Shown here one piece after another: positions 5,126-32,641 of a stretch of DNA of 36,312 nt. The translations under genes were made by a program, and so were the position numbers. The DNA is from an uncultured Alphaproteobacteria bacterium. Lineage in GTDB: Bacteria > Pseudomonadota > Alphaproteobacteria > Rickettsiales > CAIJLX01. The notes under the pieces are model-generated. The model saw nothing but the letters and a program-made list of their open reading frames with translations. It made no database searches and was not told the DNA's origin. The stretch is taken from positions 1-36,312 of the forward strand of contig CAIJLX010000099.1 in NCBI GenBank assembly GCA_903821695.1, read 5' to 3'. Positions within the stretch are counted from its first letter, which is position 1; each line of letters opens with the position of its first letter.

Positions 5126-6554
5126 ACACAATACCCGCTGGCTCTACACGGTACTTCTTCGTAATATCGGCCAACTGATAATATTCAGGTGGCATATTCG
5201 TTGCTAGATACACTGCTTTGTTGCAAGGCAAACTATCAATATAATGTAGCACCGTACCGCTCCATAATAACCGCTCTTCCCACACCAACTGCACATCCGG
5301 CCGCAACTGCTCCACTGCCTGCATAAAATACAGCGGTCGCCAAAGCGTATAATCCGCAATCAACACCCCATTCTTCTCAATCGCAGCCAATGCTTCTTCA
5401 GCATATTTACGCGGACCAATATCATGTCGTTTTGCCGGCCACATAAAATACCACGCATTGTCGCGGTAAGGGAGCGGACGTGCACCCACCACATCGACAC
5501 CGAGATATTTCGTAGTCTCTATCGCCGCAATATAACCAACAGGTGGCAGCAATCCCAGAAGCACCAAAACCACCGGCAGATATTTTTTATGAAGCGATGC
5601 AGCGCCAACTCCAATAGACACCGCAAGCACTGGATAAACCAACACATAGATATTAAATTTATCTGGGATGGAAGCTGTAATCCCGACGAATATAAAAAGT
5701 AGCAGCCATATTATCAGTGGCGCCATTTCCCAATATTTTTTCTGCCACGCGATAAAAATACCAGAACCGGCCAACACAAAACCGATTCCTAAAAAGTTAT
5801 AGGAGGCATAAGCGATGAATTTTCCAAATTCACGCAGCGGGGAAACATCGAAGAAGCCATTGGAAGGATTCTGTAATCCCATCGCCCGCAGGAACGGCTG
5901 GCCCGCAAATAGCCGTGAAATGCTTTGTTGCCAATAAGGAAAGGATGCAGCAATGAAAACTAATGCCACAATGATCAGGCCCGCTATCGGCACTTTGCGA
6001 ATACGCATAAATATCAGAGGCACAAGTGTGGCCCCTAACACAAGACCCATTGCGTGGTGCAATAATGTAAGACCCGCAAACAAAGCGGCCACCACTAGAT
6101 ATTCCATTTTCTCGCGTTGCCACCACAGTGTGACACAAGCATAGCAAGCAAATACCAATGCCGTATTAAAAGTATACACTTCTGCCAGAACAGACATCAG
6201 CCAGAATGTATGTGATACCATCAACGCAACCGCGGCCGCGGCCGAGGCAAATAATTGTTGTGTAATCATACCGCTGATAAAGGCGACCAGACCGATCGTC
6301 ACTGCGCCAAAAAAGGCTGTCATGATGTTGGCGCGCGTACCTGCATCACCGATCGGAATCAATTGGAACAGTGATCCAACTCCGCGATAAAAAATATAAT
6401 CCCGGCTCGTGCCAACAAAGGAGCGGTCACCCGCATAGACCATCCGCAACGCAAGATCGGCATTATCACCCCAACCAAATGTGGGGGCTAACGTAAAAAG
6501 ATAAAAACCAAAAGCGCACAGCGCGCACAAAAATGAAATGCTTCGGATAGTCAT
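5100..6554 (-). CDS. GT-C-like membrane glycosyltransferase (DUF2723-type)
   Basis: This polytopic membrane protein has 484 residues and about ten hydrophobic helices. After the first helix comes an acidic motif in a loop (GWGDNADLAL, D30 and D33), and further on AEVYT at 124-128. Both resemble the DUF2723 family, which is related to GT-C protein/lipid-linked mannosyltransferases. Such enzymes use polyprenyl-phosphate sugars and act on the periplasmic face. The C-terminal ~120 residues are soluble. It is the last gene of the minus-strand group and its start overlaps the upstream acyltransferase stop by four bases. Addition of a side-branch sugar to the flipped unit is the likely role, by inference. 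The sugar cannot be predicted. Confidence 0.72.
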   Translation of the reverse strand: MTIRSISFLCALCAFGFYLFTLAPTFGWGDNADLALRMVYAGDRSFVGTSRDYIFYRGVGSLFQLIPIGDAGTRANIMTAFFGAVTIGLVAFISGMITQQLFASAAAAVALMVSHTFWLMSVLAEVYTFNTALVFACYACVTLWWQREKMEYLVVAALFAGLTLLHHAMGLVLGATLVPLIFMRIRKVPIAGLIIVALVFIAASFPYWQQSISRLFAGQPFLRAMGLQNPSNGFFDVSPLREFGKFIAYASYNFLGIGFVLAGSGIFIAWQKKYWEMAPLIIWLLLFIFVGITASIPDKFNIYVLVYPVLAVSIGVGAASLHKKYLPVVLVLLGLLPPVGYIAAIETTKYLGVDVVGARPLPYRDNAWYFMWPAKRHDIGPRKYAEEALAAIEKNGVLIADYTLWRPLYFMQAVEQLRPDVQLVWEERLLWSGTVLHYIDSLPCNKAVYLATNMPPEYYQLADITKKYRVEPAGIVFKVARNCR

Positions 6555-7561
6555 TCTTGTATGAAATACCTCTTTGCCGCCGCAAGCAATGGTTTTTCAA
6601 CCCACTGATAATAGAACACGCCCATGCCGCAAGAAAGAATAACAAACAATGTGAATGCGATATACCCATTCGGCACTAACGATGAAAACCTCGCCAACAC
6701 AGAAATCGCCGGACCATGCACTAGATAAATAGCATAAGAAGCAGAGCCCAATAATAACAGCCAGCGGCAACGGCTAAAATCGATATCGCGCTCTATATGA
6801 GCGACACCCAATATGAAGAAAGCAAAACCTACGCCTGTTAATAAATGGATGACAGGAGCTGCATCACTATACAAAGAAAAAAGAGCCGAAATGATAACTA
6901 AGATGATTCCCGATGCTGCCAATAAATAGCGAAATGAATATAGTTTCTGCGTGTGATATATCGAACAAATCATCACCCCTAAAAGAAATTTGATGTTCGC
7001 TGTTCCCACCAGAAAATAAGCCCATCTGGGAAGAGGAAAAAAAGAGAGCGCTAGTATTGGCACCAGCCACACATAAATAAATCGGGGGTTACGCAGCCAG
7101 AAAAAACAGATGCCGAAAAGTAGATAGAAAATAACCTCATATTGCAAAGTCCATGCAACTGTTACTGCGGTTGGAGAATTGGAGGGCAGCAAAAATAAAG
7201 AACCCATAATGCTAAAACCTTCCCGTGCGGCCATAGACACAGAGGGCAGCAGAGAAAGCATGGCGATCATCACAATCGATATGGGTAAATACGGCACATA
7301 AATACGCAAGGCACGAGAAAGCAGATAGCCTCGAGCACCTTTTTTATTCATTGGAAGTGAGCGTGTCGAATGCGCAATAATAAAACCGGACAGCACAAAA
7401 AAATAATCTACGCCGAAATAACCTAAGTGAAATAATTGCAAATAATTGCCTTCCATGCCTTTATAGAAAAATTGGGAAGCATTTGCGGCATGGTGCGAAA
7501 CCACAGCAATCGCCGCCAGTGCCCTTCCAATTTGAAGGCTATAAAGTTGATGTTTTAACAT
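6551..7561 (-). CDS. Acyltransferase 3 family (OafA/ExoZ-like) O-acyltransferase
   Basis: This is an integral membrane protein of 336 residues and about ten helices. The N-terminus has the family hallmarks: a basic residue in the first helix (GRALAA, R13), the histidine pair H23-H24 in VVSHHA, and then GYFGVDYFFVLSGFIIAHS in the second helix. These match acyltransferase-3 proteins that transfer acetyl or other short acyl groups to surface sugars. It overlaps the deacetylase gene upstream by 23 bases and the GT-C gene downstream by four, so the three are surely co-transcribed. The acyl group and target sugar are unknown. The C-terminal fused SGNH domain present in long OafA proteins is absent. 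Confidence 0.85.
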   Translation of the reverse strand: MLKHQLYSLQIGRALAAIAVVSHHAANASQFFYKGMEGNYLQLFHLGYFGVDYFFVLSGFIIAHSTRSLPMNKKGARGYLLSRALRIYVPYLPISIVMIAMLSLLPSVSMAAREGFSIMGSLFLLPSNSPTAVTVAWTLQYEVIFYLLFGICFFWLRNPRFIYVWLVPILALSFFPLPRWAYFLVGTANIKFLLGVMICSIYHTQKLYSFRYLLAASGIILVIISALFSLYSDAAPVIHLLTGVGFAFFILGVAHIERDIDFSRCRWLLLLGSASYAIYLVHGPAISVLARFSSLVPNGYIAFTLFVILSCGMGVFYYQWVEKPLLAAAKRYFIQE

Positions 7562-8471
7562 CAGAATAATCCTGCATTGTCATCACTGACAGCAACCCTT
7601 GTTCACGATACTGCGCCACCTTTTCGATAATCTGAGCAAAATTTTGAACCATCACGGGATGATTAATGAAATTATGAGGATGAAACCACATATGCACTAC
7701 TCCATTATTCTCCACCGCATGCTTGAGGATATGATTCCAACGAAGTTGCGTTACCGAATTCGGCACATGTTTGCGCAAACCTTGTGGCCAGTTTAGAAAG
7801 AAGCCTGCCGGAATAACTGCTAAATTATTTGCATCATGCGCAAGTGTGGTTTGTGATTTCTCTAGAATATTAAACTCGGCAGCGAGGTTACCAAGCCTTC
7901 CTACTATATTCGTTTTATACGCCTTGCCTTCACGATAGCCTATATAGCCATATTTCTTCAGCAATCCGGTAAACCCCACCAAGTTACGGGGATAAATAAA
8001 TGTATTGGGTTTTACTGTGAGAAGCTCTTGCGAAGCCTGAAAGTCATATTTGGCTTCTTCGAGTGTTAGTTCTTGTTCTAAAAAGGCACGGTGAAAACAG
8101 CTATGAGAGGCTATTTCATGAATACCTGCGTCGATCACACGCTTCATCGCGGAAGGGCAAAACCAGCCTTCATATTGTGCCGCCTCCATATCCTGATAAA
8201 ACTTCTTCAGCCAGGCATGATAGGTTTTGGGCGTATTATAAAAAAGATCTTTGTGCTGCTTAAATTGTTGTGACGATTGGGTGAAAGCGCTCACGAATGC
8301 AAAACTCGCCGGGACCTTATATTTCTCCAGCACCGCCAACATCTGCGTATAGGCACCATTAATATTAGCCGTAGTAAAGTACTGTTCATGATAGGGTTGA
8401 ATACTATCGGCCATTCCCCATTTTCCTTCGCAATCCAGCGAAAGAATAAATACTGCTTTATTACATGGCAT
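7539..8471 (-). CDS. Polysaccharide deacetylase (NodB-homology, CE4-like)
   Basis: The protein has 310 residues and no signal peptide, so it probably acts in the cytoplasm on a precursor. The start ILSLDCEGKWGM carries the first catalytic aspartate (D13); the usual second aspartate of the TFDD motif is replaced by cysteine-glutamate (C14-E15). The zinc motif HSxxH is present as HSCFH (H123, H127), and a late histidine-rich stretch (MWFHPHNF) can supply the last motif. This variant with D-C-E recurs in EPS clusters, to my knowledge. It overlaps the upstream GNAT gene by 11 bases. Deacetylation of an N-acetylated sugar, to be re-acylated by the neighbouring acetyltransferases, is a reasonable inference. 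Confidence 0.82.
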   Translation of the reverse strand: MPCNKAVFILSLDCEGKWGMADSIQPYHEQYFTTANINGAYTQMLAVLEKYKVPASFAFVSAFTQSSQQFKQHKDLFYNTPKTYHAWLKKFYQDMEAAQYEGWFCPSAMKRVIDAGIHEIASHSCFHRAFLEQELTLEEAKYDFQASQELLTVKPNTFIYPRNLVGFTGLLKKYGYIGYREGKAYKTNIVGRLGNLAAEFNILEKSQTTLAHDANNLAVIPAGFFLNWPQGLRKHVPNSVTQLRWNHILKHAVENNGVVHMWFHPHNFINHPVMVQNFAQIIEKVAQYREQGLLSVMTMQDYSDVKTSTL

Positions 8472-9498
8472 CGAAATCTCCGCTCATAATATACCAGTTA
8501 TTCGGCGCATAGATATTGGCCGGAAGATTTTCAGTTGTCAGCGGGCGAACGATGAATGGTTTTTTCTGCAATTTCAAAAACCATTGTCGGCAAAGACTTG
8601 TCCGCAAATGCGGCATGTTAGTCATGATCATTACCAGCATACATTTTCTGTCATAGGCATACCGTACAATATCTCGCAGCAATGCATCCACCACCTCTTT
8701 ATTCCCCCACAATTCCGAGATACGGATGAAGCGTTTTTCTGGTTCTCCTTCCAGTGCACTCTCACGAAAAACAGCAAAGCCTTTCAATACTCCGACCTTT
8801 TTTGCACTGAGCCATATATGAGATAATTCTGCCTCTTGATTATAACGCCACTGAAACCATCGCGCGTCGCGCAGAACACGGCAACTTCTCTCCGGGAATT
8901 CAGTCTCACTCATTATTTCCTCAAGCATCGCCGCTTGCGGTTGCTCTATTGTTATCTCAAATCCAGAATCCGATTGAGGCTTTATTACATTCAGCGCTGA
9001 ATGTACCCATTCTGGGACAAAATTAAAACGACGCAGCGGGTGAACAAACCGCACATAGCGTGGAATATCACAAACATGGCGCCAATTCATTTTATGGACA
9101 TGCCCGCCATAAGAGGGTGGATTAGGGAAGCCATAGATTATTTTGATGTGCTGCCCCTTCAGCACATCAAAAATCTCCTTCCCCATTTGGGTAAATAGAC
9201 CTTTTCCACCATGCGCAGGATCAACCATGATATCGAGTGCCTGCGCTGCAGCGACTTGCTGGTTGTTGCATAATACTCGTGTTGGCCACATCGCGTAGGC
9301 ACCAACAAGTTTTCCGTTTTCTTCAGCGAGAATGACAGGTGCAAGCCCAGATTCTGTTTCTGTAAACCGCCAATTATCTTCTGCTATTGTTCGATTACTT
9401 TGATAGACGCGCCGGAAAAGATCCCGAATGGCATCGATATCCTGCGCGCGCATGAGGCGTAGTTGATAATTATTCATAGCGGAATCGAACGCTAGCAT
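8461..9498 (-). CDS. GNAT-family N-acyltransferase
   Basis: The protein has 345 residues. The N-terminal half is a GNAT acetyltransferase fold, with motif A visible as DIMVDPAHGGKGLFTQM (89-105), which binds acyl-CoA pyrophosphate. The C-terminal half may be a second degenerate GNAT domain, as in FemAB-like or long sugar-modifying GNATs. The start at 9498 is preferred over M8 (9477) because GGTGGA lies just upstream of it. It is the first gene of the minus-strand group, head to head with the initiating transferase gene (54 bases between). Together with the deacetylase behind it, it could exchange the N-acyl group on an amino sugar; this is inference from context. Confidence 0.75.
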   Translation of the reverse strand: MLAFDSAMNNYQLRLMRAQDIDAIRDLFRRVYQSNRTIAEDNWRFTETESGLAPVILAEENGKLVGAYAMWPTRVLCNNQQVAAAQALDIMVDPAHGGKGLFTQMGKEIFDVLKGQHIKIIYGFPNPPSYGGHVHKMNWRHVCDIPRYVRFVHPLRRFNFVPEWVHSALNVIKPQSDSGFEITIEQPQAAMLEEIMSETEFPERSCRVLRDARWFQWRYNQEAELSHIWLSAKKVGVLKGFAVFRESALEGEPEKRFIRISELWGNKEVVDALLRDIVRYAYDRKCMLVMIMTNMPHLRTSLCRQWFLKLQKKPFIVRPLTTENLPANIYAPNNWYIMSGDFDAM

Positions 9499-24325: not shown

Positions 24326-25443
24326 AACCTTTGCAAATTGCACTCATCGCAGGCACGCGCCCTGAAGTGATCAAAATGCTGCCGGTATATCTGGAACTGA
24401 AGAAGCGCCCCGGCATATTGCCAAAAATGATTTTAACAGGTCAGCACCGCGAATTGGCTCATGATGTTCTACGCATTTTTAATATTGTGCCGGATCTTGA
24501 TATGGAAGTGATGCAAGAGGGGCAAACATTGCTCACTCTCTTCAGCCGCATTTCCTCTGCACTTGCCAATTACATGACTAACGATCGTCCGGATATCGTA
24601 TTGGCACAAGGTGACACTACTTCTGCAATGATGGCCGGAATGTTCGCATTCTACGCCGGTATACCAGTTGGGCATATTGAAGCAGGACTGCGTACCGGTA
24701 ATTTGCAGTCACCATTTCCTGAAGAATTTAATCGCCGTGTGTTGACGCTTGCCGCGCGCTGGCATTTTGCACCAACCAAAACCGCCGCTGAGAATCTTGC
24801 AAAAGAAGGCATCAATCAAAATGTGTGTGTTGTTGGCAATACCGTTATCGATGCCGCACTAATTATGGCAAAACAGAAAACAAAAAATATTGAGGCACTA
24901 CAAAAACGATTCCCTTTCCTCCTGGAGGAAAAGAAACGTCTGGTATTAATAACGGCGCATCGTCGTGAAAACTTCGGCAACGGCATGCGCTCTATTGCTG
25001 CCGCCATCAAAGAGCTCGCTAAATTAAAACCGGAGTTTGAGTTTCTTTTGCCGATGCACCCGAATCCAAATGTACGACCCGTATTTATGTCTGCACTTCA
25101 AGGCTGCCCTAATATCCACCTCACCGATCCAATGGATTATGATGAAATTTTATTCTTAATCCAAAAATCCGTTCTGATTCTAACCGACTCCGGTGGGATT
25201 CAGGAAGAGGCACCTATTTTCGATGTTCCAGTATTGGTGTTACGTAATGAGACAGAAAGGCCAGAGGGCGTTGCAGCCGGATGCAGCGTTTTGGTCGGCA
25301 CTGATCCGAAGATAATTCAGCAGAACTTTCTTACACTTGTGAGTAAACCTGCTGAATATAAAAAAATGGCAAGCGCCAAAAATCCTTATGGCGACGGCAG
25401 CGCAAGCCGCCGCATTGCCGACATTCTTTTAGAACATCTATGA
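24322..25443 (+). CDS. wecB: UDP-N-acetylglucosamine 2-epimerase, non-hydrolysing
   Basis: The 373-residue enzyme interconverts UDP-GlcNAc and UDP-ManNAc in the cytoplasm. Family blocks are intact: GTRPEVIK (11-18), GDTTSAM with D98, HIEAGLRTG with H118 and E120, PFPEEFNRR, and SGGIQEEAP from S290. The length is that of the family. It starts on ATGA with the glycosyltransferase before it and ends on ATGA with the one after, so it is embedded in the operon. A WecC-type UDP-ManNAc dehydrogenase is not obvious in the window, so ManNAc itself or a further derivative such as an amino-uronate could be the product used. Confidence 0.94.
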   Translation: MKPLQIALIAGTRPEVIKMLPVYLELKKRPGILPKMILTGQHRELAHDVLRIFNIVPDLDMEVMQEGQTLLTLFSRISSALANYMTNDRPDIVLAQGDTTSAMMAGMFAFYAGIPVGHIEAGLRTGNLQSPFPEEFNRRVLTLAARWHFAPTKTAAENLAKEGINQNVCVVGNTVIDAALIMAKQKTKNIEALQKRFPFLLEEKKRLVLITAHRRENFGNGMRSIAAAIKELAKLKPEFEFLLPMHPNPNVRPVFMSALQGCPNIHLTDPMDYDEILFLIQKSVLILTDSGGIQEEAPIFDVPVLVLRNETERPEGVAAGCSVLVGTDPKIIQQNFLTLVSKPAEYKKMASAKNPYGDGSASRRIADILLEHL

Positions 25444-26657
25444 AAATCCTGATGCTGACAGCGCAGCTTGGCTATGGTGGCGCGGAAACCTCATTCATTC
25501 GCCTGGCAAATTATTTGGCGCAATCCATGGATGTCACGGTTGCGTTATTTACCAGTGATTATGGCAAAGGTGCTTATGCCCTAGGACACGAGACACTCAA
25601 TGCGAAGATTGTGTTGCTTGATAGCCCCGTGCGCGCTGGTCGCTTAAAACGCTGGTGGCAAAGAATTAAGGCAGTACGGAAACTCAAAGCTGATAGTGAT
25701 GCAGCCATCAGCTTCCTTTCCGGGCCGAGTATGGTGAATGTGCTCGCTGGCCTTAATTCTCGCACCGTTATTTCTCTGCGTGGCTCACGTGTATATGATC
25801 CGGTCGCATCTCGGCCAAGTCGTTTATTGTTTCAATATTTTTTAGACCCTATCGCCTTTTGGTTGGCTGCACGCATTGTGCCGGTATCACCGGGGCTTAA
25901 AAATGAAATTAAACAAATAGCCGGAGTTGGAGTTTTAACAAAAGTCCGTGCCATTCCACCTTTTGTAGAAATAGCCTCCCTGCAACACAAACTCTCTCAA
26001 CTTGCGCCCGAACCTTATACCCAGCTGAGGGGCGAGAAAGTCATTGTCAGCGTCGGTCGTCTATCGGTAGAAAAGGGATTCCATCACTTGATCCGTGTAT
26101 TCGCTGAGTTAACAAAAACAGAAAAGGGCATAAAACTACTATTGGTAGGGGATGGGCCAATGCTGTCCGAATTACGCCATCAATGTATTAAGCGTGGTTT
26201 AGCTATTGATGATTTCTCACCTGGCAAAACATCTGTGTTGTTTGCAGGTTATCAAAAAAATGCGCTGCCGTTGATGGCGCTCGGAAAAGTCTACGCGATG
26301 ACTTCGTCCACAGAAGGGTTTCCAAGCGTTATGTTAGAGGCAATGGCGGCCGGAGTACCGGTAATTGCCACAGATGCACCTTGGGGTGCTCGTGCAATTC
26401 TTTCTGAGCAGGCAGAAGAAAATTCCGATCCCTACCCCACCAGCAAAGCAACTGAGTCTGACTATGGCATTCTCATGCCACGCATTGATGATCCTGGTTA
26501 TGACAGGGAGTGGGTGCGAATATTGAGTGAGTGTTTGCGCACAGAGAAATGGCGTGAACTCTACAGTCAAAAAGGAAAAGGACGTCTCCCTGATTACGAT
26601 ATTGAGCGCATCGGTCAAGAATGGAAGAAGCTGATTGATTCTCTGGTAAAAAAATAG
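25440..26657 (+). CDS. GT4-family glycosyltransferase
   Basis: This is a full-length GT-B enzyme of 405 residues. The glycine-rich acceptor loop is QLGYGGAE at the N-terminus. The donor domain has VIVSVGRLSVEKGFHHLI, then the E-x7-E motif in EGFPSVMLEAMAAGVPVIATD. It is close to the usual GT4 pattern of WecG/RfaB-like polysaccharide transferases. It is coupled to wecB by ATGA and sits 12 bases before the MBOAT gene, linking the sugar genes to the acyl-decoration module. The sugar is unknown; use of the neighbouring WecB product is an attractive but untested idea. Confidence 0.91.
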   Translation: MKILMLTAQLGYGGAETSFIRLANYLAQSMDVTVALFTSDYGKGAYALGHETLNAKIVLLDSPVRAGRLKRWWQRIKAVRKLKADSDAAISFLSGPSMVNVLAGLNSRTVISLRGSRVYDPVASRPSRLLFQYFLDPIAFWLAARIVPVSPGLKNEIKQIAGVGVLTKVRAIPPFVEIASLQHKLSQLAPEPYTQLRGEKVIVSVGRLSVEKGFHHLIRVFAELTKTEKGIKLLLVGDGPMLSELRHQCIKRGLAIDDFSPGKTSVLFAGYQKNALPLMALGKVYAMTSSTEGFPSVMLEAMAAGVPVIATDAPWGARAILSEQAEENSDPYPTSKATESDYGILMPRIDDPGYDREWVRILSECLRTEKWRELYSQKGKGRLPDYDIERIGQEWKKLIDSLVKK

Positions 26658-26669
26658 CACCATTCAGTT

Positions 26670-28109
26670 ATGAATTTTATATCCTTCGATTTTTTTCTAT
26701 TTACAGTTCTTGCCATCTTTTTGATGCGCTTTACAAAGCAACCGCATCTAAAATCAGCGATCGTTCTCTTTCTTAATGCGATATTTTTTGCCAGCTTCTT
26801 TGCTTCACCAATAGAGGCGCTGCCTGTGCTCGGCATGCTTGCACTGGGTTATGTTTGCTTACAAATTGTTGCGCGGTTTCGCTATGCCTTGGGTTTCATT
26901 ATTGTTGCCGTCATATTGCTCTTTGCGTGGCTGAAACGATATGCACTAATTGAGCCTTTATTACCGATCGACGCTTCACCATTGGTGGTAGTCGGATTGT
27001 CCTATATCCTATTCCGCACCTTACATTTGATGATCGATGTGGCGCAGGGCGATAAGGCCGTGCCGCCGCTATTACAATATTTTAATTATTGTCTATTTTT
27101 CCCTACCTTTGTCTCAGGCCCCATTCAGCGCTATGAACATTATGAAGCGGAGATAAGCAAACCTGTACCGTCACTCACAGTGCCTGTGTTGCACAAAACG
27201 CTAAGTCGTATATTGCTCGGCATTATATTGGTCATGGTTATTTCGGCCTATGCTTCCAATATGCTGGAGTGGCTGAAAGGCACTCGCTCACTCTCCACGC
27301 CTGCACAAGCCGAGTGGTTAAAGTCAGGCGTGCTTTTTGCAATTGTATCGTTTTTGATGTTTGTAAAACTCTATACGAATTTTTCCGGCAGCATGCATAT
27401 CATCATCGGCATCGGCACATTAGCTGGTGTAACCTTGCCGGAGAATTTTAACAAGCCGTACTTGGCAAAGAATTTTCTCGATTTCTGGGCGCGCTGGCAC
27501 ATTACGCTATCCGAGTGGATTAAATTTTATCTCTTCAATCCATTGCTCAAATGGCTAACGCGACATTTTCCCTCACCACGCGCAGCGCACACTATCGGCG
27601 CCATCGCATTTTTTGTCTCATTTATGGTAATTGGCCTATGGCATGGCAACACTCTGTTATTTGTAGTGCTCGGCATTTTGTTGGGTCTTGGGGCAACTGG
27701 CAATAAACTCTGGCAACAATTCTGCCTTCGCCGATTAGGCAAAAAACGTTACCAGTCACTTACACAACGCAATTGGTATTTCCAATTCTCCCGCGGACTT
27801 ACTCTCAGCTATATCGCGACCGCACTCATGTGCTTTTGGCTCGATGCAAATTATCTGCACGCAAATAATATTCTATTGTGGCTGAAGATTATGGTGATAA
27901 GCTTCTTAGTAATGACCACTGGGTTTGCCATCCTCGGTGGCATAATCGACACCATTTTTAATCTTGTGCGACGCTGCAATATTCACCCGCCCTCACTTTC
28001 GTCCCAACCCGCAATGATTCTATCAATGGCATTCTTAGTGTTCTTGATATTTAATCTCATTGGTGCATTCGGCAGCGACACTCCCGAATTTATTTACAAG
28101 GGGTTCTGA
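26670..28109 (+). CDS. MBOAT-family membrane O-acyltransferase (DltB/AlgI-like)
   Basis: This polytopic membrane enzyme has 479 residues. Conserved MBOAT blocks are present: FVSGPIQRYEHY, the region from NFSGSMHI to PENFNKPYLAKNFLDFWARWHITLS (F272 to H277 and on), and GLWHG with the catalytic histidine H325. DltB and AlgI of this family accept an acyl group on the cytoplasmic side and pass it across the membrane. It is followed, one base overlapping, by an SGNH protein, then by a carrier protein, methyltransferase, VOC protein and FkbH. The acyl donor is therefore likely the carrier-protein thioester. A role in decorating the polysaccharide is inferred from family logic and position. Confidence 0.9.
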   Translation: MNFISFDFFLFTVLAIFLMRFTKQPHLKSAIVLFLNAIFFASFFASPIEALPVLGMLALGYVCLQIVARFRYALGFIIVAVILLFAWLKRYALIEPLLPIDASPLVVVGLSYILFRTLHLMIDVAQGDKAVPPLLQYFNYCLFFPTFVSGPIQRYEHYEAEISKPVPSLTVPVLHKTLSRILLGIILVMVISAYASNMLEWLKGTRSLSTPAQAEWLKSGVLFAIVSFLMFVKLYTNFSGSMHIIIGIGTLAGVTLPENFNKPYLAKNFLDFWARWHITLSEWIKFYLFNPLLKWLTRHFPSPRAAHTIGAIAFFVSFMVIGLWHGNTLLFVVLGILLGLGATGNKLWQQFCLRRLGKKRYQSLTQRNWYFQFSRGLTLSYIATALMCFWLDANYLHANNILLWLKIMVISFLVMTTGFAILGGIIDTIFNLVRRCNIHPPSLSSQPAMILSMAFLVFLIFNLIGAFGSDTPEFIYKGF

Positions 28110-29167
28110 TGTTATCCATCGCACGCTATCTTTTAAGTGTCTTGGTGTTGGCAGTGATCATGCAGTGCGCCTTTCTAGTGCTAGTCATAAACATAACTTG
28201 GAAAGAGGTGTTGGATAGCCATCATAAAAATAACAGCATTTTCCAAGATGAGGCCCGCGCTGGAATTTACGGCTCGCCGATGATTGTGCGGGGCAGCGAT
28301 CATCTGCAGGTGGTGATTCTGGGCGTATCGAATACCGTCCGTGCATTGCGCCCAGAACAATTGCAGCCTTTGCTCGGTATACCTGTCCATAATATCGGGA
28401 TGGGCGGTCAGCGCTTTCGCGCGTTCGACCAAATGGTTGAACTGCTCTATCGCCAAACACCAAAAGAAAAGCGCCGCAATTATGTGTTCGTAATCGCCCC
28501 AAGCTATCCGCTTATTGCAGACATGAAAGAAAATATGGGGGGCAAAAGATCCTCCGTGGATGAGGAAATGCTACGCTACGGTATATTCGTTGAGACACCA
28601 CAGGGAATCATTCCGCGCGTTTCTGATGCTAGGCTTTCTTCCGCATTACAAGCCGTATGGCCCTTCATGGCCCCGCAGGCGATTTATACGGTAACATTAC
28701 AAACCTTATTACCGAAGGTCGTGTGGTCTTACATCATCAAGGCGGTGCCGTTTACGAATGAGGAGACAAACACCATCACCTTTACGCCCGAACAAAACAA
28801 AGCGCGTATCGATTTTTATAATACAGAAGTCATCGACACCACAGGCGCTTACACCTTTGACCATTTAATCCGCGCGGCCGATCGCATTAGCGCAGAAGGT
28901 GGGCAGCTGGTGATTATCGATCTGCCTTCTGCAACTTGGCTCCAAAAAGCGACACCGCTTTATGCTGCCTATCAGCAGCTCAAAAAACCTTATTATGCCC
29001 GCCTACAAAAACAAAAGAATATTCGCTTCCTTGAGTTACAAGATGGATTTGCCAACGAAGATTTTTATGACGGCATCCATGTGCGTGCGAGAATTAGTTC
29101 GAAAATTGCCACGCTTGCTGCTATCCCTATTGGGCAAGCACTTGATGCATTAAACAAATCACACTGA
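28109..29167 (+). CDS. Membrane-anchored SGNH-fold protein (DltD/AlgJ-like)
   Basis: The protein has 352 residues: one N-terminal helix (about 7-29), then a periplasmic domain. The nucleophile block is ILGVSNT with S74; GxSN instead of GDS is known in several SGNH-like partners of MBOAT proteins. A later asparagine-glycine block is HNIGMGGQRF. The C-terminal catalytic pair is DGIH (D321, H324). All three triad residues are thus visible. Gene order MBOAT then SGNH, with a one-base overlap (TGATG), matches dltB-dltD and algI-algJ style pairs. It would take the acyl group from the MBOAT on the outer face and load it on the glycan; this is inference. A plain esterase is the alternative. Confidence 0.78.
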   Translation: MLSIARYLLSVLVLAVIMQCAFLVLVINITWKEVLDSHHKNNSIFQDEARAGIYGSPMIVRGSDHLQVVILGVSNTVRALRPEQLQPLLGIPVHNIGMGGQRFRAFDQMVELLYRQTPKEKRRNYVFVIAPSYPLIADMKENMGGKRSSVDEEMLRYGIFVETPQGIIPRVSDARLSSALQAVWPFMAPQAIYTVTLQTLLPKVVWSYIIKAVPFTNEETNTITFTPEQNKARIDFYNTEVIDTTGAYTFDHLIRAADRISAEGGQLVIIDLPSATWLQKATPLYAAYQQLKKPYYARLQKQKNIRFLELQDGFANEDFYDGIHVRARISSKIATLAAIPIGQALDALNKSH

Positions 29168-29181
29168 TCGGATGACGAACC

Positions 29182-29421
29182 ATGGAACAAAATGACATCT
29201 CAAAAAAACTCACCTCTGTTTTCCACGCGGTGTTTGATGATGAATCGATTATACTAAAACCCGAAATGACTGCTGCTGATATTGAAGAGTGGGATAGCCT
29301 AACCCACATACGCCTCATTTTATCGGTTGAAAAAGAGTTCGGCGTGAAGTTCTCGGCGGCCGAGGTTGGAAACCTAAAAAATGTTGGTGATTTCCTTTCC
29401 CTCATCGAAAGCAAATTGTAG
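29182..29421 (+). CDS. Acyl carrier protein
   Basis: This is a 79-residue acidic four-helix carrier protein. The 4'-phosphopantetheine attachment serine is S39 in EEWDSLTHI, the standard D-S-L context at the start of helix 2. It is distinct from a fatty-acid AcpP by the tryptophan before D-S-L, as is common in DltC-like and specialised ACPs. It lies 14 bases after the SGNH gene and just before the methyltransferase gene. The nearby FkbH suggests that it carries a glyceryl (or derived hydroxyacyl) thioester, to be passed to the MBOAT protein. No dedicated phosphopantetheinyl transferase is in the window, so a cellular one must act. Confidence 0.93.
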   Translation: MEQNDISKKLTSVFHAVFDDESIILKPEMTAADIEEWDSLTHIRLILSVEKEFGVKFSAAEVGNLKNVGDFLSLIESKL

Positions 29422-29425
29422 TTCT

Positions 29426-30340
29426 ATGCAGCCCGTTTCTTCCTATGTACCAACCATTATTGAAGAAATAAGCGCCACCAATCCGCTACAAAAGAAGTTT
29501 TTGGATAACGCGATCACACAATTAAGCGCGGATGAAATAAACGACCTAAATACCTATCTTTCCTTCTGCGTTGCCTCCGGCATTACCCTGCCCTATCTCG
29601 CGGATTGTTATCTTACCATTGTGAAAGATACACTGAGCGAGCAAACCTATTTCATGGAGCATGAAGCCTATCGTTATAACCGCTTTGCCGATGTCGGAGA
29701 CAATGTCTATTTTAACGATGCCTACATGAAAAAATACATGTATGGGCTGGCGATCACCGCCTTCCTCTGGCCGAACCACACCGCCCTACATCGCTTTTTT
29801 TTAGAAAATATTCCTACGAACAAAAAAGGCAAATATCTCGAGATCGGCCCCGGCCACGGTTATTATTTCATGAACGCAATGGCGCGCAGCGCCTATGACA
29901 ATTTCACTGGCGTCGATATCAGTAAAACCAGCCTCGATCTAACCAAAAATATTATCCACCATTATTATCCTGATGCCAGTTCACGTGTTTCATTAGTGGA
30001 AGCGGATTTTCTAAATTGGCAAGATCACAACGGACCCTATGATGCGATTACGATGGGTGAAGTGTTAGAGCATGTCGAAAACCCGCTCGATTTTTTAAAG
30101 AAGATTGCATCGCTTAGCACGCCGGCCACACATGTGTTTCTAACCACCTGTGTCAATGCACCAGCAATTGATCACATCTATCTTTTCCGAACACCGCAAG
30201 AAGTGGAAACGATGATGGAGGCTGCCGGATTCTCCGTCGTCAAAAAACATTACGCACCGTATGTCGGCAAAACACTGGAATATTGTGCGAAATATAAACT
30301 CGCAATCAACGTTGCCTACGTCGTTAAAAAAAGAAGCTAA
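29426..30340 (+). CDS. Class I SAM-dependent methyltransferase
   Basis: This protein is predicted at 304 residues from ATG 29426; an upstream start at 29381 would overlap the ACP gene by 41 bases and add 15 unlikely residues. The first ~120 residues are helical and not assigned. Motif I is LEIGPGHG (138-145), followed by an acidic end of strand 2 (GVDIS) and a motif-IV-like EVLEHVENP. Its place between the carrier protein and the VOC/FkbH genes suggests that it methylates the carrier-bound acyl group, as O-methyltransferases do next to FkbH in methoxymalonyl-ACP loci. Methylation of a sugar is the alternative. Confidence 0.82.
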   Translation: MQPVSSYVPTIIEEISATNPLQKKFLDNAITQLSADEINDLNTYLSFCVASGITLPYLADCYLTIVKDTLSEQTYFMEHEAYRYNRFADVGDNVYFNDAYMKKYMYGLAITAFLWPNHTALHRFFLENIPTNKKGKYLEIGPGHGYYFMNAMARSAYDNFTGVDISKTSLDLTKNIIHHYYPDASSRVSLVEADFLNWQDHNGPYDAITMGEVLEHVENPLDFLKKIASLSTPATHVFLTTCVNAPAIDHIYLFRTPQEVETMMEAAGFSVVKKHYAPYVGKTLEYCAKYKLAINVAYVVKKRS

Positions 30341-30341
30341 T

Positions 30342-30761
30342 ATGAACGAAGCGGGGCTTACCTTTCATCATCTTGGTTTAGCAGTGAAGGAAGAGGAGCC
30401 AGCGATCCAATTTCTGAATGATCTAGGATATAAGGTTGGTGAGAAGATTTTTGATCCACTGCAAAATGTAAATCTCCGAATGTGTTCTCATCCCGCAATG
30501 CCAAGCGTCGAAATGATTACGCCAGCAGAAGGCAAATCACCGATCGATTCTATCATCGCCAAACATGGCGCCTGCATTTACCATACCTGTTACACCTCAA
30601 ATAACGTCGCCAAATCATTGTCATTCTTAGAAAACAAAGGCCACCGCATCCTACCCGTCTCAACACCAAAAGCGGCCATCCTTTTCCAGGGCAAGCCCGT
30701 TTCGTTTTATAATATTCTTGGATTTGGCATCATCGAAATCATCGACATGGCAACCGCATGA
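30342..30761 (+). CDS. VOC-superfamily protein (glyoxalase / methylmalonyl-CoA epimerase-like)
   Basis: This small protein has 139 residues from ATG 30342; a longer reading from 30261 would overlap the methyltransferase by 80 bases and is rejected. The two beta-alpha-beta-beta-beta modules are visible, with the four classical metal ligands in order: H10 (in HHLGLAV), E57 (VEMITP), H81 (CIYHTCYTS) and E132 (IIEIID). This arrangement fits glyoxalase and methylmalonyl-CoA epimerase-like enzymes. It overlaps fkbH by ATGA. Acting on an acyl thioester (epimerising or isomerising the alpha carbon of a carrier-bound group) is a reasonable inference. I know of no defined reaction for this gene neighbourhood. 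Confidence 0.83.
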   Translation: MNEAGLTFHHLGLAVKEEEPAIQFLNDLGYKVGEKIFDPLQNVNLRMCSHPAMPSVEMITPAEGKSPIDSIIAKHGACIYHTCYTSNNVAKSLSFLENKGHRILPVSTPKAAILFQGKPVSFYNILGFGIIEIIDMATA

Positions 30762-32641
30762 CACGCAATATCTACACCGATTTAACCTGGCTACCGCGCC
30801 CGCCACAAGATTTCTCTGCGCAAGTAAAATCGACGGATGCAGGCAAGAGTTTGCAAAAACTGGCGCAGCATGCACTCAATGAAAATCAACTCAATAGCCT
30901 CGCGAAAAAGTTCAATAAGTTGCGTGCAGCCTCGACCGATTTCTCGCCGCTGACGCCATTTAAGTTAGGCATTATCGGAAACGCGACCACGCATTTTGTG
31001 GCGCCTGCCATACAAGCAAGTGCACTGCGCCACGGCATTGCGCTCACCGTCGCCGAAGGTCATTACGATCAGCCTATGCAGGAGGCACTCGATGTGCGCT
31101 CGACCATTCACCAATTACAACCAGACGGCGTATTGGTCGCGATTGATTATCGCGGGTTGGGGCTATTACCATCACCCGGCAATAAGGAAATGGCGCAGGA
31201 AAACATTGCGGCAGCGATGGCACATCTCAAACAAATCAGCGACGGCATTCACGCCAACAGTAAAGCAATTTGTATTTTCAAAACATTAGCCCGTCCGGTA
31301 GAGCCAGTATTCGGCAGCTTCGATGCGGCTTTGCCAGGCACTCAACGCTGGTTAATTGATCACTTCAATCGCGCATTAGCAGAATGGTTATTGGGGACAT
31401 CAGATGTATTGTTTGATGTAGCAGGCCTCGCCGAAACCGTTGGTCTTGCCGAGTGGCATGACCAGACATTATGGAACATGGCGAAACTTCCTTTCGCCAG
31501 TATCTTCATTCCAATCTATAGCGAAATGCTCGCGCGTATTCTCGGTGCATTGCGTGGCAAAAGTCGGCGCTGCCTGATTCTCGATCTCGACAACACACTC
31601 TGGGGAGGCGTCATCGGCGATGATGGCTTAGAGGGCATTATCATCGGCCAAGGCAACGCTACAGGCGAAGCGCATTTAGCAGTACAGCATACTGCATTAG
31701 GCTTGCGTGCACGCGGAGTAGTGCTCGCGGTATCCTCAAAAAATACGGATGAGATTGCGCGCACACCGTTTCAGAAACATCCCGAAATGGCATTGCGCGA
31801 AGAACATATCGCCGTGTTCCAAGCAAATTGGAATGATAAAGCGACCAATATTCGCGCGATTGCTGGAGAGTTAAATCTTGGTTTGGATGCAATGGTGTTT
31901 CTCGATGATAACCCAGTCGAGCGCGGTTTGGTGCGCCAGATGTTGCCGCAAGTTGCAGTGCCGGAATTACCGGCTGATCCCGCGCTCTATGCACGCACTT
32001 TATTAGCAGCAGGATATTTCGAAGCCGTCGCGTTTTCGGAAGAAGATCGCAAGCGCGCAGACTTCTACAGCCAAAATGCACGCCGCGTTAGCTTGCAAAA
32101 ACAAGCGGGCGATATGGAATCTTATTTGCGTTCATTGCAGATGGTCATGACAATTGCACCGTTTGATGCAGTTGGCCGCGCGCGCATTTCACAACTAGCC
32201 AATAAATCAAATCAGTTTAACCTCACCACTCGCCGCTATTCAGAGGCGGATATTGCAGCAATCGAAGTCGACCCCGCCTGCCATCACTGGCAAATTCGCC
32301 TAAGCGATATCTATGGCGATAACGGCATGATCAGCGTCATCATTTGTCGTGATAAAGGCAAAGAGTGGGAGATTGATACCTGGCTGATGAGCTGCCGCGT
32401 GCTCGGGCGAAAAGTTGAAGATGCTGCACTCCAAAAAATTATCGCACAGGCCAAAAAGCATGGCATTGAAAAACTGATCGGCGTTTATTTGCCAACCGGG
32501 CGAAATGGATTAGTAACCGATCATTATATAAAGCTGGGCTTCACATTAGACACACAAAACGAAGATGGCTCAAAACGCTATCACTTGCTGGTTAAGGATG
32601 CCCCAGTCACTACTTTCCCGATAGAAATTTGCTCAAAATGA
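30758..32641 (+). CDS. FkbH-like HAD-IIIC protein (glyceryl-ACP forming type)
   Basis: The 627-residue protein has the three-part FkbH architecture. An N-terminal SGNH-like/helical region (about 65-250) precedes the HAD-IIIC domain with catalytic DLDNTLWGG (D276, D278), VSSKN and the late acidic loop FLDDNPVER. A C-terminal GNAT-like domain begins with NKSNQFNLTTRRY and contains the conserved WLMSCRVLGR. Characterised FkbH enzymes take 1,3-bisphosphoglycerate, remove phosphate and load a glyceryl group on an ACP. The dedicated ACP, MBOAT and SGNH genes just upstream make glyceryl transfer to the polysaccharide the favoured role. Loading of another hydroxyacid is possible. It is coupled by ATGA at both ends. 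Confidence 0.91.
   Translation: MTRNIYTDLTWLPRPPQDFSAQVKSTDAGKSLQKLAQHALNENQLNSLAKKFNKLRAASTDFSPLTPFKLGIIGNATTHFVAPAIQASALRHGIALTVAEGHYDQPMQEALDVRSTIHQLQPDGVLVAIDYRGLGLLPSPGNKEMAQENIAAAMAHLKQISDGIHANSKAICIFKTLARPVEPVFGSFDAALPGTQRWLIDHFNRALAEWLLGTSDVLFDVAGLAETVGLAEWHDQTLWNMAKLPFASIFIPIYSEMLARILGALRGKSRRCLILDLDNTLWGGVIGDDGLEGIIIGQGNATGEAHLAVQHTALGLRARGVVLAVSSKNTDEIARTPFQKHPEMALREEHIAVFQANWNDKATNIRAIAGELNLGLDAMVFLDDNPVERGLVRQMLPQVAVPELPADPALYARTLLAAGYFEAVAFSEEDRKRADFYSQNARRVSLQKQAGDMESYLRSLQMVMTIAPFDAVGRARISQLANKSNQFNLTTRRYSEADIAAIEVDPACHHWQIRLSDIYGDNGMISVIICRDKGKEWEIDTWLMSCRVLGRKVEDAALQKIIAQAKKHGIEKLIGVYLPTGRNGLVTDHYIKLGFTLDTQNEDGSKRYHLLVKDAPVTTFPIEICSK

Follow-up and report, generated by a model that had tools for sequence, protein, structure and literature searches.

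A putative FkbH-charged, Dlt-like acyl relay in an alphaproteobacterial exopolysaccharide cluster

What do an FkbH protein, a dedicated acyl carrier protein (ACP), and an MBOAT transmembrane acyltransferase do together when their genes lie in a single run inside an exopolysaccharide cluster? The question is raised by contig CAIJLX010000099.1 (assembly GCA_903821695.1; 36,312 nucleotides, here called the window) from an uncultured member of the Rickettsiales, in which six adjacent plus-strand open reading frames (ORFs) at 26670-32641 encode, in this order, an MBOAT, an SGNH-fold protein, an ACP, a methyltransferase, a VOC protein, and FkbH. On the strength of its gene content, motifs, folds, position in the tree, and recurrence across genomes, we conclude that the module is real, recurrent, and functionally coherent. 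We consider it likely that the six genes specify a carrier-protein-dependent, Dlt-type transmembrane acyl relay that is charged with a glyceryl group by FkbH, tailored by the methyltransferase and the VOC protein, and used to esterify the exopolysaccharide. The features of the run are as follows.

26670-28109, plus strand: MBOAT transmembrane acyltransferase, identified by family match, predicted fold, and tree; catalytic His325; C-terminal extension at about residues 390-479
28089-28106, plus strand: codons of the hexapeptide F-I-Y-K-G-F at the MBOAT C terminus, identified by sequence reading; putative FXYXXF acyl shuttle (motif per PMC12148441) and functional counterpart of DltX
28109-29167, plus strand: SGNH-fold protein with an N-terminal membrane helix, identified by predicted fold; Ser74, Asp321, and His324; putative DltD/PatB-like final transferase
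29182-29421, plus strand: dedicated ACP; phosphopantetheine Ser39 in EEWDSLTH
29426-30340 (longest ORF from 29381), plus strand: class I S-adenosylmethionine-dependent methyltransferase (Methyltransf_23); proposed to O-methylate the acyl group
30342-30761 (longest ORF from 30261), plus strand: VOC-superfamily protein resembling methylmalonyl-CoA epimerase; proposed acyl-ACP C2 epimerase
30758-32641, plus strand: FkbH (FkbH_N plus HAD-IIIC); DLDNT with Asp276 and Asp278; invariant Cys546; proposed charging enzyme

In the proposed relay, FkbH would load the ACP with D-glyceryl taken from 1,3-bisphosphoglycerate, so that neither an ATP-dependent ligase nor CoA would be required, and the methyltransferase and the VOC protein would modify the ACP-bound group, most likely by O-methylation and C2 epimerization. 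His325 of the MBOAT would then pass the group from the ACP to Tyr476 in the protein's own FIYKGF tail, at the outer face of the membrane, and the Ser74/Asp321/His324 site of the SGNH protein would receive it from the tyrosine and esterify the exopolysaccharide made by the neighboring genes. The FkbH chemistry and the tyrosine steps are taken by analogy from what is known of the two families (PMC7489565; PMC12148441), glyceryl-ACP formation by FkbH being known from polyketide systems (PMC7489565).

A preliminary description of this DNA had named the six products and several catalytic residues. The identities were borne out by the ORFs, by family models, and, for the SGNH protein, by its predicted fold, and His325 of the MBOAT, Ser74, Asp321, and His324 of the SGNH protein, Ser39 of the ACP, and Asp276 and Asp278 of FkbH were all verified in the translations. 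The MBOAT matches PF03062 (E = 4e-16), and FkbH matches FkbH_N (E = 6e-13) and TIGR01686 (293.7 bits against a cut-off of 146.65). The methyltransferase matches Methyltransf_23 (1e-20), and the VOC protein matches Glyoxalase_4/VOC (2e-15) and, below the cut-off, the methylmalonyl-CoA epimerase model TIGR03081. The 79-residue ACP scores 20.7 bits with the PP-binding model PF00550, just below the cut-off of 20.8, and is separate from the housekeeping ACP, which sits on another contig (C33). The genome holds one MBOAT and one FkbH, and no AMP-binding protein of the DltA type was found among the scanned window ORFs. The SGNH protein (352 amino acids) has no Pfam match and no match to the DltD family model. 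Because sequence searches of the order and of plasmids failed to find homologues and iterated profiles found only that of locus L052, we turned to structure prediction; in the AlphaFold2 model a confidently predicted SGNH core follows an N-terminal helix at residues 2-37, and the Foldseek matches include GDSL hydrolases, PatB of Neisseria and Campylobacter, and DltD of Enterococcus.

The shuttle tail and the DltB clade

The window MBOAT ends in SDTPEFIYKGF, an exact FXYXXF match, with the tyrosine at position 476; this feature had been overlooked in the preliminary description. PatA acylates the tyrosine of its own C-terminal FXYXXF, and the tyrosine hands the acyl group to an SGNH partner, while in the Dlt system the motif forms the C terminus of the microprotein DltX (PMC12148441, 2025). 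Since FIYKGF matches the motif shown experimentally for PatA and DltX, the window MBOAT is predicted to carry a tyrosine acyl shuttle at Tyr476.

In Foldseek searches with the MBOAT model, the best match was DltB (8jem/6bug; TM scores of 0.67 to 0.79). The DltB equivalog model of NCBIfam scored 164.8 bits, below its cut-off of 375, and was rejected as a discriminator of MBOAT types, being the sole MBOAT model matched and failing to separate the types. A tree was therefore used instead. In a FastTree phylogeny of 94 MBOATs, which contains one DltB fragment and has many weak inner nodes, the window MBOAT groups with DltB and with all genuine tail-less MBOATs (split support of 0.955), its fused tail being nested among tail-less relatives. 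It lies outside the remainder of the tree, which is all fused and AlgI/PatA-like, although no named AlgI or PatA reference was included. Two apparent tail-less exceptions outside the DltB clade (L103 and L113; L numbers denote loci) seem to reflect a frameshift and the end of a contig.

Seven FkbH-linked MBOATs stop at the DltB core and lack the motif (L053, L062, L086, L109, L111, L140, and L147), and all seven are accompanied by a separate single-helix microprotein of 33 to 48 residues. In six of the seven the microprotein, encoded in the immediate neighborhood, ends in Y-x-x-F; the L062 microprotein, on reading its sequence, ends in VYKNM. We also scanned 2.13 Mb blindly for hydrophobic micro-ORFs with a hydrophobic-Y-x-x-F ending and obtained 60 matches, 54 of them MBOAT tails and the other 6 the Y-x-x-F microproteins just described, with no such micro-ORF in MBOAT-less loci or, in fused-tail loci, anywhere outside the MBOAT itself. 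As judged from sequence, the separate microproteins represent the DltX arrangement within FkbH clusters.

Apparent exchange of the charging enzyme and recurrence across genomes

If the MBOAT receives its substrate from a charged carrier, which enzyme does the charging in relatives that lack FkbH? Five non-FkbH members of the window MBOAT clade were examined (L192 to L196), a small sample. An AMP-binding enzyme was recognized by Pfam near three of them (L193, L195, and L196), with a profile derived from those three enzymes, L194 shows a weaker match, and L192 has no such enzyme. Conversely, 13 of the 14 FkbH-linked members of the clade are without an AMP-binding enzyme, and the exception, L140, is doubtful, its match being some kilobases distant and on the other strand. 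The presence of AMP-binding enzymes near non-FkbH members and their absence from the vicinity of most FkbH-linked ones suggest, within this small sample, that the charging enzyme alternates in a single MBOAT clade between an AMP-binding protein and FkbH.

These Pseudomonadota loci have further features of their own. The AMP-binding enzymes lie near a DltB-size MBOAT at 2746-5955 in L193, where two AMP-binding ORFs are accompanied by a radical SAM/SPASM gene, at 8944-10464 in L195, which also has a sulfotransferase, and at 4950-6383 in L196. Microproteins occur in L192 (5227-5379, minus strand; FIYVSF), L193 (about 7942-8088, plus strand; FIYWDN), L194 (7377-7544, plus strand; FLYGRF), L195 (within 7660-7830, minus strand; FRYAGF), and L196 (about 7505-7630, minus strand; FEYQKF). 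As each of the five tail-less MBOATs has one nearby, DltX analogues seem to be general for MBOATs of this kind.

The preliminary description had proposed a genome survey for the conserved gene set. We used an FkbH alignment to search genomes, one for each species; in 69 of the best 80 named loci an ACP lay no more than 600 bp from FkbH, and in 47 an MBOAT lay within 3 kb, on the same strand in 42. A separate search of 349 genomes of the same phylum gave an MBOAT within 3 kb in 15 of 40 FkbH loci; the two sets were counted apart because at least one contig is common to both (L045 is L100). The FkbH loci that have an MBOAT belong to alpha-, beta-, and gammaproteobacteria, Verrucomicrobia, Omnitrophota, Myxococcaceae, Clostridium, Prevotella, and further groups. 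In 44 loci the MBOAT, ACP, or FkbH gene is adjoined by an SGNH-like ORF, defined by GxS near the N terminus and DxxH near the C terminus, and some of these ORFs match GDSL or ALGX in Pfam. The full six-gene set also occurs, with differing gene orders, in Sphingomonas, Novosphingobium, Phenylobacterium, another alphaproteobacterium, and a verrucomicrobial metagenome-assembled genome, and in Stutzerimonas a self-contained MBOAT-FkbH-ACP-SGNH run is flanked by BrkB and LpxR genes, and no further acyltransferase was recognized beside it.

Against this survey stands the idea that unrelated genes have come together by chance. The SGNH gene was not found by sequence searches of 174 other sampled genomes of the host order or of plasmids, nor was there any match in viral contigs, so the module is rare in the order and was probably acquired recently by this genome. 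Such rarity speaks for chance; however, 47 of the 80 loci, from many phyla, have an MBOAT no farther than 3 kb from FkbH, where MBOAT density would lead one to expect well under 1% (a rough figure). This excludes chance adjacency, to which we attach next to no probability.

Two other loci deserve mention. A single cluster in L191 (4203-13216) contains two MBOATs, one fused and one tail-less, a DltX-like micro-ORF, FkbH, methyltransferase and VOC genes, and two ACPs. On megaplasmids of the genetically tractable Sinorhizobium meliloti (L077, 815-5849, and further plasmids of this species), the order is MBOAT, an SGNH-like gene annotated as a TonB receptor, ACP, and FkbH.

Cargo and acceptor

What does the relay carry, and to which polymer? 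The surroundings of the module are as follows.

2136-26657, strand not assigned: exopolysaccharide cluster, the likely source of the acceptor
25440-26657, plus strand: GT4 glycosyltransferase directly upstream of the MBOAT gene (12-nucleotide gap)
32638 (or 32629)-34449, plus strand: methyltransferase-like domain fused to a GT4 glycosyltransferase, the next gene of the run, overlapping the FkbH stop

The cluster encodes a Wzz/tyrosine kinase, an AT3 acyltransferase, a deacetylase, a GNAT protein, a sugar transferase, a UDP-sugar dehydrogenase, epimerases, Poly_export/SLBB, Wzy_C, and EpsG proteins, and several GT4 glycosyltransferases. The module thus lies inside a large exopolysaccharide cluster with GT4 genes on both sides, and the fusion gene that overlaps the FkbH stop ties it to glycan synthesis. 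The preliminary description had called the six genes mostly overlapping. Three overlaps stand: 1 nucleotide between MBOAT and SGNH, 4 between VOC and FkbH, and 4 to 13 between FkbH and the glycosyltransferase. Those of 41 nucleotides (ACP/methyltransferase) and 80 nucleotides (methyltransferase/VOC) are probably artifacts of longest-ORF starts and vanish with starts at 29426 and 30342, which appear likelier from the sequence. Elsewhere in the cluster, AT3 acyltransferase (6551-7561), polysaccharide deacetylase-like (7539-8471), and GNAT (8461-9498) genes follow one another on the minus strand, possibly as a second, independent acyl modification system.

Methyltransferase homologues adjoin FkbH in about 20 loci, and both methyltransferase and VOC homologues stand beside FkbH and ACP genes with no MBOAT nearby in Paroceanicella (L074) and Rhizobium (L112), which suggests that the two enzymes act on acyl-ACP and not in the transfer. 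In line with this suggestion, O-methylation of carrier-bound glycerate has been proposed for suomilide and varlaxin. The resemblance of the VOC protein to methylmalonyl-CoA epimerase suggests that it epimerizes the thioester at C2. The exported group could accordingly be glycerate, O-methylglycerate, or a C2 epimer of either.

The same MBOAT-free loci would also suit an operon that houses two pathways. In that case the MBOAT and the SGNH protein would O-acetylate the polysaccharide from acetyl-CoA in the manner of PatAB or AlgIJ, and the FkbH, ACP, methyltransferase, and VOC proteins would make a glyceryl-type group, to be attached to a sugar before export by a cytoplasmic acyltransferase such as the GNAT protein encoded at 8461-9498. 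MBOATs with the same tail do use acetyl-CoA (PMC12148441), and GNAT and AT3 acyltransferases are present in the same cluster. However, the MBOAT/SGNH/ACP/FkbH core recurs in many lineages, with the Stutzerimonas run leaving no other acyltransferase in view; the window MBOAT belongs to the carrier-dependent DltB clade and not to the AlgI/PatA-like one; FkbH-less members of its clade mostly have an AMP-binding charging enzyme; and a dedicated ACP and FkbH speak against acetyl-CoA as the donor. Two pathways in one operon therefore strike us as improbable.

A single relay might nevertheless carry something other than a glyceryl-derived group, if FkbH of this branch draws on a different acyl phosphate or if the group is dehydrated or oxidized before export. 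FkbH relatives are just 33 to 51% identical to the window protein, and in L052 a fusion of a MaoC dehydratase and a short-chain dehydrogenase is encoded between FkbH and the MBOAT (6873-8306), pointing to different acyl-ACP tailoring. Yet the alignment shows no variation at the FkbH motif residues or at Cys546, and the window ORFs include no polyketide synthase and none of the FkbI/FkbK-type dehydrogenases of the methoxymalonyl route. We regard a non-glyceryl cargo as unlikely, though to be taken seriously, and favor the glyceryl-derived group suggested by FkbH family chemistry. About as doubtful, in our view, is that the acceptor is some different polymer of the cell envelope or a lipid-linked intermediate. 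The contexts of relatives do vary widely (BrkB/LpxR in Stutzerimonas, RTX repeat proteins in Sphingomonas), but the window module lies within the exopolysaccharide cluster and is continuous with GT4 genes on both sides, which argues for this cluster's polysaccharide.

Several observations weigh against a glyceryl relay of the kind proposed here. The MBOAT tail and residues 139-240 of the SGNH protein are modeled at low confidence, SGNH sequences are highly divergent (12 to 19% identity), and a single clear homologue of the window SGNH protein emerged at the sequence level, that of L052 in iterated profile searches. The FkbH substrate is assigned from polyketide precedents (PMC7489565). Moreover, L052, the closest MBOAT/SGNH relative, has its MaoC/dehydrogenase protein in place of the methyltransferase and VOC proteins, so the final acyl group is not fixed. 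Of what the preliminary description had proposed, a Dlt-like, ACP-based module in a Gram-negative organism with FkbH replacing the ligase is strongly supported by the tail, the microproteins, the DltB clade, the exchange of FkbH with AMP-binding enzymes, and the survey. Its further proposal, that a glyceryl-derived group is transferred to the exopolysaccharide, is conjectural as to both the glyceryl identity and this acceptor, and so are the methylation and epimerization of the group.

Glycerate esters do occur on bacterial polysaccharides. In gellan, C-2 of a glucose residue bears L-glycerate (PMC9104527), and a review credits an unnamed glyceryltransferase activity (PMC9737242); we found the gene for it named neither in these reviews (PMC9104527, PMC9737242) nor in the open-access literature. 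Several sphingomonads carry the module, including the VOC gene. Nor did we find the coupling of FkbH, ACP, and MBOAT described in the open-access literature, although such an account may exist in a subscription journal or as a preprint. On balance we incline, with some caution, to the view that FkbH-charged ACP/MBOAT/tyrosine shuttle/SGNH relays form a widespread and undescribed class of surface acylation systems, found in Gram-negative bacteria and in some others and driven directly by an acyl phosphate of glycolysis, with exchangeable carrier tailoring enzymes and either a fused tail or a DltX-like shuttle; sphingomonad versions could supply the gellan-type L-glycerate ester, the VOC protein serving as D-to-L epimerase. 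The module would then offer candidate genes for glycerate esters such as that of gellan, which affects gel strength, and the Dlt principle of a charged carrier, MBOAT, tyrosine shuttle, and SGNH protein would be a general chassis with a swappable charging enzyme, extending beyond D-alanylation in Gram-positive bacteria.

Comparison with known systems

Like PatA/PatB and AlgI/AlgJ-AlgX, the window module combines, in a Gram-negative organism, an MBOAT bearing a fused C-terminal FXYXXF and an SGNH partner. Unlike them, it has a dedicated ACP and a charging enzyme, and its MBOAT falls outside the all-fused clade. MBOAT/SGNH pathways other than Dlt have been said to lack both a carrier protein and a DltX-like microprotein (PMC12148441), a generalization that the loci described here contradict at the sequence level.

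With the glyceryl-ACP systems of FK520, oxazolomycin, and tetromadurin, the module shares an FkbH with a catalytic DxD, a dedicated ACP, and a methyltransferase gene, corresponding to their nearby O-methyltransferase; it differs in having no polyketide synthase or FkbI/FkbK-type dehydrogenases and in that its product would pass to a transmembrane acyltransferase. The suomilide and banyaside clusters, in which FkbH and an O-methyltransferase belong to a nonribosomal peptide synthetase loading module, likewise combine, within a single cluster, an MBOAT with FkbH and the O-methylation of carrier-bound glycerate (PMC13122637). There, however, FkbH loads the synthetase and the MBOAT is thought in that proposal to attach an acyl group to a hexose of the peptide, with no coupling proposed between the two (PMC13122637).

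With Dlt itself (DltA-DltX-DltB-DltC-DltD), the module shares a dedicated carrier, a DltB-clade MBOAT with its catalytic histidine, the tyrosine shuttle motif, and a transmembrane-anchored SGNH protein, and some relatives of the module retain a separate DltX-like microprotein. It departs from Dlt in having FkbH instead of the adenylating DltA, a shuttle fused to the MBOAT, methyltransferase and VOC genes, an MBOAT scoring well below the DltB cut-off, and a setting in a Pseudomonadota exopolysaccharide cluster and not in teichoic acid synthesis, a context that argues against D-alanyl teichoic acid as the product. Overall, the window module works like Dlt but is no Dlt pathway.

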